From Brevibacterium picturae (lineage in GTDB: Bacteria > Actinomycetota > Actinomycetes > Actinomycetales > Brevibacteriaceae), in contig NZ_LT629739.1 of assembly GCF_900105045.1 (NCBI RefSeq), positions 4,340,001 through 4,404,000 of the forward strand: DNA of 64,000 nt, in the 5' to 3' direction. The position numbers were made by a program, and so were the translations under genes. Shown here piece after piece: positions 12,180 to 36,462 of the stretch. The notes beneath the pieces are model-generated. The model was not told where the DNA came from. It saw only the letters and a list, made by a program, of their open reading frames with translations, and did not search any database. The stretch's first letter is position 1. Each line of letters begins with the position of its first letter.

Positions 12180-13013
12180 ATGACCGACGATCAGCAGAGA
12201 CGCTTCGCCATCGGACTCGACGTGGGCGGAACCGGAATCAAGGCCGGGCTCGTGGACACCGCGACCGGGAACCTCGCGTTCAAGCGTGTTCGAATCCTCA
12301 CCCCCAAGCCGAGCACTCCGCCCGAAGTCGGATCGGCAATGGCAGACCTCCTCGAGAAACTCACTGTCACCGCGTTGGATCTCGGAGTCGTCGACGACCG
12401 CTCTACCCTGGACGCTCTGCCGATCGGATGCGGCTTTCCCGGAGTCATCCGTGATGACCACGTTGATTTTGCAGCAAACCTCGATCAGTCCTGGATCGGG
12501 TCGAACATCACCGCCATTCTCGCCGAGGCCACGGGTCGACGTTTCTACTTCATGAACGATGCCGATGCGGCTGGTCTGGCTGAGATGACTTTCGGAGCAG
12601 GTCGCAGGCATCGGAAGAAGACCGTGCTGCTGACAACTCTGGGCACCGGCATCGGCACCGCCCTGTTCACTCAGGGGCGCCTGGTCCCCTATACGGAGCT
12701 GGGGCACATCGAGATGAATGGCCGGGATGCCGAGACACAGGCGGCCGAATCGATCAAGGTGCGCGAGGACCTCAGCTACGAAGACTGGGCAGGCCGCCTG
12801 CAGCAGTACTATTCCCAGATCGAGCTGCTGGTCGCACCCGACGTCATCCTCATCGGCGGCGGAATCTCGAAATCACATGCACAGTTCCTGCCTCTGATCC
12901 GCACTCGCGCAGAGATGAAACCGGCAAAGCTGCTCAACAACGCGGGCATCGTCGGGGCAGCCATGCTGGCGGCCAACAACGGCAAAGCGAAGGTGAAGAA
13001 GGGGGCCGCATAG
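12180..13013 (+). CDS. ppgK: Polyphosphate glucokinase
   Basis: A 277-residue ROK-family sugar kinase that phosphorylates glucose with polyphosphate or ATP. The phosphate-binding GLDVGGTGIKAGLVD is at the N-terminus, the catalytic Asp is in FMNDADAAGLAEM, and the LLTTLGTGIGTALF and ELGHIEMNGRDAE motifs match actinobacterial PPGK rather than ordinary ROK glucokinases. The start at ATG 12180 comes directly after the map stop (12176-12178), so translation is probably coupled. An in-frame start 24 codons earlier would overlap map and adds no conserved sequence. Confidence 0.93.
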   Translation: MTDDQQRRFAIGLDVGGTGIKAGLVDTATGNLAFKRVRILTPKPSTPPEVGSAMADLLEKLTVTALDLGVVDDRSTLDALPIGCGFPGVIRDDHVDFAANLDQSWIGSNITAILAEATGRRFYFMNDADAAGLAEMTFGAGRRHRKKTVLLTTLGTGIGTALFTQGRLVPYTELGHIEMNGRDAETQAAESIKVREDLSYEDWAGRLQQYYSQIELLVAPDVILIGGGISKSHAQFLPLIRTRAEMKPAKLLNNAGIVGAAMLAANNGKAKVKKGAA

Positions 13014-34261: not shown

Positions 34262-35506
34262 ATGACACCTAAAGTTGTCGTCACCGGGATTGGTGCGGTA
34301 ACCCCATTGGGCGCGACGGCCGATGCCACGTGGCAAGCCACTCTGGCCGGCGAGTCCGGCGTCCACACAATGGACAATGATTGGTCCGAGAAGTACGGCC
34401 TCGCCGTCGACTTCGCAGCACAGGTAGACCCACAGGTCGTTCCCGAAAATCTCAAACGCGTCCAGGCCAAACGCCTCGACCCCTCCTCACAGTTCGCTCT
34501 GATCTCCGCTCGTGAAGCCATGGCCGACGCCGGGCTCGAGGAGACCGATCCTGACCGCACCGCAGTCTCTTGGGCGACCGGAATCGGCGGAGTCTGGACT
34601 CTGCTCGACGCCTGGGACACCCTGCAGGAAGAGGGCCCACGCCGGGTCATGCCTCTGACTGTGCCGATGCTCATGCCCAACGGCCCTGCCGCGGCAATCG
34701 GTATGGAGTTCAAGGCCCGCGCAGGCGTCCAGACCATGGTCTCCGCCTGTGCTTCGTCAACCGAGAGCCTGGGACACGCCTACGACGTCGTGGCCAACGG
34801 CCACGCCGATATCGTCATCGCCGGTGGCTCCGAGGCCGCGATCCACCCGATCACGATCGCTTCGTTCAACTCCATGCAGGCGCTGTCACGTCGCACCGAC
34901 TCCCCTGAGACCGCATCCCGTCCCTACGACGTCGATCGCGATGGATTCGTCATGGGCGAGGGAGCAGGGACCCTCATCCTGGAGACCGAGGAACACGCCA
35001 AGGCGCGTGGCGCGACAATCTACGCCGAGGTGTCCAGCTGGGGCATCTCGAACGACGCCTACCACATCACCGGTGGTGAACCCGGCGGCCAGTACGCGCT
35101 GCGAGCGATGCAGAGCGCGCTCGACAACGCGGAGCTCAGCCCTGCCGACATCAAGCACGTCAATGCGCATGCGACCTCGACTCCGGTCGGTGACATTCCT
35201 GAGTCGCTGGCCATCAGCGAACTGCTGGGCTCTCACGTCGGCGATGCGCTGGTCAGTGCGACCAAGTCGATGACCGGCCACCTGCTGGGTGGAACGGGGG
35301 CCGTCGAGTCGATACTGACGGTCAAGGCGCTGCAGACACGCACCGCTCCCCCGACGATCAACATCGACGAGGTCGACCCGGAGGTCGTGGGCATCAACAT
35401 CGTCCGCGACACTCCCGCAGAGCTGCCTGCCGGAGACATCGCCGCGATCTCGAACTCGTTCGGCTTCGGCGGGCACAACGCCGTTGTCGCCTTCAAGTCC
35501 GTGTGA
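34262..35506 (+). CDS. fabF: 3-oxoacyl-ACP synthase II
   Basis: A 414-residue elongating condensing enzyme. The active-site Cys163 is in MVSACASSTES, and the two His are in VNAHATSTPVGD and SMTGHLLGGTGAVE. GFGGHNAVVAFK ends the protein as in the family. It is the last gene of the fab operon. The gap to acpP is 65 bases. Start ATG 34262 has a modest ribosome site (GAGG). Confidence 0.96.
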   Translation: MTPKVVVTGIGAVTPLGATADATWQATLAGESGVHTMDNDWSEKYGLAVDFAAQVDPQVVPENLKRVQAKRLDPSSQFALISAREAMADAGLEETDPDRTAVSWATGIGGVWTLLDAWDTLQEEGPRRVMPLTVPMLMPNGPAAAIGMEFKARAGVQTMVSACASSTESLGHAYDVVANGHADIVIAGGSEAAIHPITIASFNSMQALSRRTDSPETASRPYDVDRDGFVMGEGAGTLILETEEHAKARGATIYAEVSSWGISNDAYHITGGEPGGQYALRAMQSALDNAELSPADIKHVNAHATSTPVGDIPESLAISELLGSHVGDALVSATKSMTGHLLGGTGAVESILTVKALQTRTAPPTINIDEVDPEVVGINIVRDTPAELPAGDIAAISNSFGFGGHNAVVAFKSV

Positions 35507-35581
35507 TGCTGTGCTGCAGCACTGATGACTCATTGATGCCTTACTGATGCCTGCGGAGGTTTTGTTCGTCTCCGTGTGATG

Positions 35582-35633
35582 CAACAGCAGCTCAGGCCCT
35601 CAGCTTCATTGCTGGGGGCCTGAACTGCTGTTG
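35582..35633 (+). terminator. Terminator of the fab operon
   Basis: Twenty-three-base arms (35582-35604 with 35611-35633) pair with two mismatches and a six-base loop. It lies 75 bases after the fabF stop. Confidence 0.75.
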
Positions 35634-35964
35634 CCTGAGTGCCTCGGGTTGACTGGCCCCAGGCAGAGCTGTCCCTGGCGGGACGGAGGCTGTTCTGCTG
35701 TGCTGCCATGAGCGTCGCGGCGCACCTTCGCCTTGCCGGCTCGTTTCGACACCAAGCTCGAATATGTCGTCGCCGGCGACGACATATTCCGAATTGGCGT
35801 TGATTGACTCGAGGTCATGGCAGTGCCAAATAAGGAGCGCATACGTCTCTGGGCACACCCGAGGTAGGCAGGTGTGCCCAGAGCGGTAACCAGTGACGAC
35901 CGGGCTTCGGTCAAACCGTCTCTCCGACGGCTCCGCTGCTGTGTCGCGTGTTTGGTTGAGAGTG
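35634..35964. other. Gene-free stretch between the fab operon and DUF3145
   Basis: I see no gene I would defend. The region holds the 30-bp palindrome described separately and a second 13-bp hairpin (35847-35859 with 35871-35883, 11-base loop) that may terminate the minus-strand DUF3145 gene. A short in-frame stretch through the palindrome (28 codons, no start) could be a gene remnant, but this is uncertain. Confidence 0.6.
35760..35789. repeat. Perfect 30-bp palindrome without loop
   Basis: Two 15-base arms (left arm GAATATGTCGTCGCC) meet with no spacer, and every base pairs. The pairing stops abruptly at 35759/35790. It lies in noncoding DNA. Because it is symmetric, both strands read the same peptide through it. 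Confidence 0.9.
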
Positions 35965-36462
35965 TCAGCCGACCTTCGTCAGCCAGCGAACCGGTGCGCC
36001 CTCGCCTGCGTGGCGGAAGGCGTCGAGCTCCTCGTCCCAGGCTTCGCCCAGGGCCAGAGCCATCTCAGTGGAGAGTTTGATCGGATCACCGGAGGCACGT
36101 TCCATGACGGAGCGGATGCGGTCTTCGGGGACCAGAATGTTGCCGGCAGAGTCGGTGACTGCGTGATAGATGCCGAGATCTGGAGTGTGGCTCCAGCGTC
36201 CTCCGTCGACTCCGACGGAGGGTTCCTCGGTCACTTCATAGCGCAACGACTCCCAGCCGCGGAGGGCTGAAGCGATGCGAGGACCCGAGCCCGCTGGCGC
36301 ACGCCAGCAGACTTCGGCGCGCACAAGGCCTGGTGCTGCCGGCTGGGGTGTCCAGTCGAAGCGTGCCTGTGCACCGATCGCCCCGCCCGCTGCCCATTCG
36401 ATGTGCGGGCATAGCGCGCGAGGTGCTGAGTGGACGAATAGTACGCCCTGTGTCATATCCAT
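35965..36462 (-). CDS. DUF3145 protein
   Basis: A 165-residue protein matching the DUF3145 family, conserved in actinobacteria and of unknown role. Recognisable are GVLFVHSAPRALCPHIEWAAG at the N-terminus, then LGIYHAVTDSAGNILVPEDRIR and DEELDAFRHAGEG near the end. No signal peptide or membrane segment. GGAGG lies six bases before the ATG at 36462. In other actinobacteria it often stands after fabF on the opposite strand, as here. Confidence 0.9.
   Translation of the reverse strand: MDMTQGVLFVHSAPRALCPHIEWAAGGAIGAQARFDWTPQPAAPGLVRAEVCWRAPAGSGPRIASALRGWESLRYEVTEEPSVGVDGGRWSHTPDLGIYHAVTDSAGNILVPEDRIRSVMERASGDPIKLSTEMALALGEAWDEELDAFRHAGEGAPVRWLTKVG

Follow-up and report, generated by a model that had tools for sequence, protein, structure and literature searches.

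A perfect palindrome of 30 base pairs, lying between two convergent genes of Brevibacterium picturae, was found to form the core of a dispersed family of longer, imperfect palindromes, two copies of which bracket a gene encoding a protein with an AbiEi-like N-terminal part and a nuclease-like C-terminal domain. Clades of that gene family have palindromes of their own, which accompany a majority of the examined genes on one side or on both, and the two palindrome types for which similar sequences were counted across several genomes are dispersed as well. The association of nuclease-like genes with palindromes appears to be a so far undescribed counterpart to the REP/RAYT repeats.

Within the window (the entire 64-kb stretch of DNA that was analysed), the palindrome occupies positions 35760-35789, where the arms GAATATGTCGTCGCC and GGCGACGACATATTC meet without a loop between the stop codons of genes for a beta-ketoacyl synthase and a DUF3145 protein (Table 1); the original prediction, a perfect loopless 30-bp palindrome in noncoding DNA, can be read there directly. 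It is the longest perfect palindrome in the window, the runner-up measuring 20 bp, and in five length-matched sequences from a first-order Markov model the longest palindromes ranged from 14 to 20 bp. By calculation, a 64-kb sequence should contain 1.6e-4 perfect palindromes measuring at least 30 bp, which bears out the assertion that one of this length is not expected by chance in such a stretch. The symmetry had further been described as ending sharply, a description that is correct for perfect pairing and incorrect for the element overall: weaker symmetry resumes beyond the core and extends to 35746-35803 (29-nucleotide arms, 79% complementary), as would be expected of a degraded 68-bp element, of which the window copy, in the register of its family, displays 23 of 34 pairs, with a perfect core and a degraded left outer arm. 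The observation that both strands encode the same peptide is accurate and trivial, since it holds for every palindrome with a length divisible by three.

Table 1. Features surrounding the palindrome, in window coordinates
Feature	Position	Strand	Remarks
Inner palindrome, core of the element	35760..35789		30 bp, perfect
Full 68-bp element, family register	35741..35808		left outer arm degraded
Beta-ketoacyl synthase (fabF-type) gene, convergent left neighbour	34262..35506	+	PF00109, PF02801
DUF3145 gene, convergent right neighbour	35965..36462	-	PF11343
Hairpin 3' of the ketoacyl synthase gene, outside the element	35581..35634
Second separate hairpin, outside the element	35842..35888		kept in ten aligned relatives

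The second of the separate hairpins, with the structure GGGCACACC-CGAGGTAGG-(N)AGGTGTGCCC, adjoins the DUF3145 gene; it is conserved in those relatives together with most of its loop and is without an Rfam match. A known RNA family was rejected for the region as a whole, with no Rfam matches in 35300-36200.

The core was found at 10 places in the 4.44-Mb chromosome of the same genome when up to three mismatches were allowed, and a reversed-pattern control was found at none. Alignment of copies together with their flanks produced the family consensus CTCGATCAACG-N8-GAATATGTCGTCGCC followed by its mirror image, that is, an imperfect palindrome of 68 bp (among the 25 rows of that alignment, rL051, a near-copy of rL050, was exchanged for the copy at 1191343). 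A fixed 68-bp outer-arm pattern matched seven places in the genome (control 0), one of which has a different core; the window copy, being too degraded, is not among the seven. According to our reading of the open reading frames all 10 copies are intergenic, with four located between convergent genes, four between co-directional genes and one between divergent genes, and with one having an unclear neighbour on one side. Core matches are present in 13 of 57 genomes of the genus, that of B. picturae included, so that the originally proposed check of copy number and conservation reveals a multicopy sequence shared among relatives rather than a single copy lacking conservation. A degenerate core pattern matches contigs of Brevibacterium sp. 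239c, B. antiquum CNRZ 918 and Brevibacterium sp. UCMA 11754, and two further genera of the order each show one weak core match that may be due to chance. At four loci (L013, L016, L017 and L077) open reading frames cross the palindrome and encode EYVVAGDDIF or a close variant, and such spurious frames may become annotated by gene callers.

Covariation was assessed for 25 copies, with a mixed outcome that, the copies also being related to one another, was given no weight: paired cells (80.4% versus 78.0% in shuffled alignments) and the covariation score (0.163 versus 0.124) were reached by none of 500 shuffles, and cells changed on both sides numbered 36 versus 25.2 (5 of 500 shuffles), while neither pairs changed on both sides (13 versus 12.4; 236 of 500) nor pair types (39 versus 37.0; 152 of 500) rose above the shuffles.

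The two element copies that bracket the nuclease-like gene are 1.4 kb apart. The gene (351 amino acids; G000:C1:3242232-3243284) is the sole member of its clade in this genome, it lies next to a glmM-like gene of the phosphoglucomutase type on one side and an ABC transporter gene on the other, and no AbiEii toxin gene was seen between the palindromes at L009/L012. AbiEi models match its product within the first ~210 residues, and PADLOC AbiEi profiles match 10 of 10 family proteins (with per-protein best E values from 2.2e-15 to 0.0074); with the AbiEi models of Pfam, family proteins stay under the cut-offs, and the 351-residue member itself has no Pfam match. DUF559 matches 15 of 28 family proteins at E<=0.1, and relatives of the 351-residue protein display weak DUF559 and MTES_1575 (REase) matches in their last third. 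A Pfam cut-off is passed by two of 10 family members and an NCBIfam cut-off by none of the 10. Across the 28 proteins a total of 11 Pfam families was matched at E<=0.1, with PF01797 not among them and with no transposase family matched by any protein, and an H-hydrophobic-H motif occurs in one of the 28. Among solved structures the sole match was 3hrl (E 0.39), and structure prediction without an alignment for the protein of Brevibacterium sp. 239c reached a mean pLDDT of 32.

Nine residues (Cys36, Cys37, Cys52, Glu225, Glu229, Gln247, Arg260, Asp262 and Lys279) are invariant in all 28 diverse members, and Glu273 is present in 26 of 28. The acidic residues and the lysine predicted for a PD-(D/E)XK site are thereby conserved, the catalytic assignment being our own; the paralogs L147 and L148 of the same genome, in which Glu273 is missing, could lack nuclease activity. 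A palindrome is nonetheless located close to L147, and G027 (L219) has one that is similar to it in part. In the AbiEi-like part, the cysteines at residues 36, 37 and 52 (numbered as in L111) are accompanied at residue 57 by a histidine in 26 of 28 proteins, and together the three cysteines and the histidine possibly form a metal site. Judged by dN/dS values of 0.07-0.34 in 10 gene pairs, the gene family is under purifying selection. Family matches are present in 54 of 57 genomes of the genus; in that of B. picturae, 13 matches at E<=1 correspond to eight genes plus one match that was taken for chance. A weak match at window positions 12441-12587 (E 0.18) was dropped, as it lies in frame within an open reading frame that by eye resembles a sugar kinase. 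Near one element copy a short open reading frame (L017, 2539-2946, minus strand) appears by eye to encode an AbiEi-type winged-helix N-terminus.

The association between gene and palindrome extends across the genus. A palindrome of 56-84 bp lies within 450 bp of the family match in 53 of 71 loci, with both sides occupied in 34 and none found by the scorer in 18 (the loci, L111-L143 and L160-L197, include near-identical orthologs and are not independent, and near-threshold matches, for example at L136, L143 and L182, may be chance). Of 20 control loci taken from these genomes at a distance of 100 kb, none has a palindrome at those positions; two hold one in another part of their 3 kb, in each case similar to a gene-flanking type (scores 54 and 31). 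A further 18 loci of the B. picturae genome (54,252 bases) contained three palindromes of 56-84 bp, with scores of 11.4-11.6, indicating a small false-positive rate at the threshold. When positions were instead counted from the open reading frames of 72 genes (excluding the duplicate genes L146, L149, L150 and L151 and the overlong frames L169, L189 and L192), a 5' palindrome was present in 40, a 3' palindrome in 48, both in 32 and at least one in 56. The 16 genes without a palindrome by the scorer include L112 and L113, where degraded copies of the window's type were missed, and L137 and L139, where palindromes are present but escaped the scorer on account of an overlong frame call or of the excessive length of the palindrome itself.

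The palindromes on the two sides of one gene resemble each other, with a mean similarity score of 40.2 (n=32; minimum 9), and palindromes belonging to genes of 30-40% protein identity score 7.3 (n=292), versus 6.6 when shuffled. The score rises with protein identity, to 10.8 at 50-60%, 22 at 60-80% and 44 above 80% (Spearman 0.51). A second palindrome type displays 10-30 strand-wise matches in nine genomes where the gene carries this type or one closely related to it; in three genomes where the gene carries another type, the matches number 2, 0 and 0. The palindrome of another paralog in the B. picturae genome, a third type, has one further dispersed copy only, and copy number therefore varies between types.

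The same intergenic sites are occupied in different species. At the site between leuA and recO, the window's type is present in B. picturae, G056 and G027 and the second type in G022, G053 and G013; among the other 24 loci, 23 are without a palindrome by the scorer and one is at chance level. Palindrome-free sites thus exist, with flanks too diverged for reading a target duplication or a base-exact empty site. In four of five comparisons of orthologous sites, the palindrome fits the gene-flanking palindromes of its own genome (38-57) far better than it fits the copy at that site in the window genome (22-26), and the fifth comparison is a tie. At the window site itself, compared across 28 relatives after the loss of L099, four (L084-L087) carry in the equivalent position a palindrome that measures 66-68 bp and differs in sequence, and ten (L098, L101 and L103-L110) have one of 62-68 bp (for example ACGGCCCACTCTGAGTCGG...) nearer to the synthase gene. 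Sites that are shared and hold differing palindromes could reflect either re-invasion or the overwriting of standing palindromes. At the leuA-recO site of B. picturae, a partial half-element (GCTCGATCAACGCCGCGTTCGAGAATGTCG) adjoins the full copy (L013, to the left of 1481-1548).

The closest known parallel is provided by RAYT genes, which are described as flanked by inverted REPs, as single-copy, and as co-evolving with those REPs (PMC2817692, PMC3116915). The arrangement in Brevibacterium is similar in that intergenic palindromes are dispersed, a gene is flanked by its own repeat on either side and co-evolves with it, one genome can contain several distinct types, and each gene type is single-copy. 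It differs in its protein, which combines AbiEi-like and DUF559/PD-(D/E)XK-like parts and is not a Y1 (PF01797) transposase; in its palindrome, which is approximately 68 bp long with a consensus that lacks a GTAG (or GTGG) head; in its copy number, about 10 for the window family versus the 37-427 perfect copies reported for Stenotrophomonas REPs (PMC2817692, PMC3116915); and in its host phylum, Actinomycetota. The suggestion that the palindrome might be a REP-like family member was consequently right about the existence of a dispersed family (10 places) and wrong about REP/RAYT membership, in the absence of Y1 and of the GTAG head. A report on RAYTs describes flanking by repeats as occurring 'always', a standard of which the present family as a whole falls short (both sides in 34 of 71 loci); the relative orientation of two flanking copies cannot be told for a palindrome.

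Other systems share individual traits. AbiEi of Streptococcus agalactiae is described as binding an 11-bp inverted repeat with a 27-base spacing that extends to 23-bp arms (PMC3985639), and an AbiEi-like part with a long inverted repeat as its likely binding site recalls such proteins of type IV toxin-antitoxin systems; unlike the antitoxin, the Brevibacterium protein has a nuclease-like C-terminal domain, and its palindromes are also located 3' of the gene and dispersed. COG4636 PD-(D/E)XK proteins, mostly cyanobacterial, are presented in PMC551604 as an expanded predicted nuclease family proposed to be selfish, and are comparable in that respect; the main text of that paper contains the string 'palindrom' 0 times. 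CGTC-tagged REPs, for which no transposase is known (PMC3733652), are likewise dispersed palindromes without a Y1 partner, but are 20-40 bp long and tagged, versus 68 bp here; the text of that article contains 0 occurrences of Actinobact-, Brevibacter-, Arthrobacter or Streptomyces. Open-access literature yielded, among the matches listed, no description of such a system, nor any under Brevibacterium REPs, REP, RAYT or REPIN in actinobacteria or mycobacteria, AbiEi or Vsr combinations, or RAYT/REPIN evolution; DUF559 with palindromes returned irrelevant matches only, and DUF559 with inverted repeats returned none. The C-terminal D...E-x-D-G pattern also resembles that of DUF559 and MTES_1575 REase-like proteins such as 3hrl, to which the matches are weak. 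We know of no palindromes tied to those two families.

On balance we narrowly favour the explanation that these genes and repeats constitute an independent system of a nuclease and its cognate palindrome, resembling REP/RAYT in organisation and evolution but built around an unrelated enzyme, with the window palindrome as a dispersed noncoding partner of a nuclease-like gene located in another part of the chromosome. By analogy with AbiEi, the palindrome is probably bound, in a symmetrical manner, by the AbiEi-like part of that gene's product, in which sense the protein-binding site proposed originally remains likely; the DUF559/PD-(D/E)XK domain would then nick or cut the DNA at bound palindromes or next to them, repair that uses another copy as template would carry palindromes to new intergenic sites, and the same copying would keep the copies of one genome alike. 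Since the enzyme is unrelated to the tyrosine transposase, movement should depend on host repair. Speaking against this explanation are the modest copy numbers, with 10 places for the window family, the 18 of 71 loci and 16 of 72 genes without a palindrome by the scorer, the tie in one of the five orthologous-site comparisons, the weak DUF559 matches and the absence of Glu273 from L147 and L148; the palindromes may have an operator or hairpin role in addition to their partnership with the nuclease. More tentatively, and with doubt somewhat outweighing belief, Actinomycetota may harbour a large commensal or selfish class independent of REP/RAYT, in which an AbiEi-PD-(D/E)XK nuclease would maintain its own palindromes of 50-80 bp and spread them through cuts that are followed by copying during repair, with the palindromes at old sites being overwritten as nuclease specificity drifts. 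If so, dispersed palindromes with a dedicated, co-evolving nuclease would have arisen at least two times with unrelated enzymes, the upkeep of REP-like populations would become testable in a second system, a common gene family hardly recognised by current models would acquire its first role, and many natural protein-palindrome pairs would become available for studies of DNA recognition.

Among the alternatives, an unlikely one is that the palindromes are operators for repression, by the AbiEi-like protein, of the gene that encodes it and of a scattered regulon, the nuclease-like domain having some other role. AbiEi proteins are described in PMC3985639 as autoregulating via inverted repeats, and the palindromes 5' of 40 of the 72 genes would suit such a function; 3' palindromes are nonetheless at least as common (48 of 72), only one of the nine B. 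picturae copies with clear neighbours lies between divergent genes by our reading of the frames, and the copies adjoin genes of unlike function where these could be identified. We give still less credence to the notion of an ordinary insertion sequence of which the elements would be remnants or non-autonomous relatives, with the nuclease-like gene as a passenger between two of them. The palindrome-gene-palindrome unit does resemble an insertion sequence with terminal repeats, yet the palindromes differ completely between distant clades while matching across the gene that they flank, the 28 proteins are devoid of Pfam transposase matches at E<=0.1, the gene is under purifying selection, and the gene beside elements of the window's type is found at the same chromosomal locus (adjacent to a glmM-like and/or an ABC transporter gene) in G022, G023, G027 and G056. 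Equally improbable are transcription terminators or mRNA-stabilising hairpins made alike within a genome by selection on expression, because, despite the many copies at gene ends and the good folding of the window copy as single-stranded DNA (z -3.1), the region 35400-36100 has 0 sites with a G+C-rich stem and a T-run (on which an intrinsic terminator was rejected), the convergent neighbours of the window copy already have hairpins of their own, and the sequence of whole arms is clade-specific and matched across the gene.

The nuclease-palindrome system favoured here is not confined to the genus in its protein component, as the gene family is present at E<=1e-15 in 86 of 396 genomes of the phylum that were searched. 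The gene is absent from 50,697 phage records and rare in plasmid records, with a single match in 72,556 (30% identity over 54%); viral contigs contained no relative of the gene, and neither the idealised element nor the palindrome of L289 had a plasmid match. A phage or plasmid origin was rejected on these grounds, in collections not normalised for their few actinobacterial records, and with the same qualification the rarity fits vertical inheritance, as is reported for RAYTs in PMC3116915. At 29 loci outside the genus, a palindrome of 48-90 bp is located within 650 bp of the match in 21, on both sides in 10, and as matched pairs in eight; among 20 control loci 100 kb away, four have a palindrome, none has one on both sides, and none has a matched pair. 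One of those control palindromes (L308) is identical at 60 of 71 bases to a palindrome that flanks the gene of the same genome, and dispersal therefore takes place outside the genus as well.
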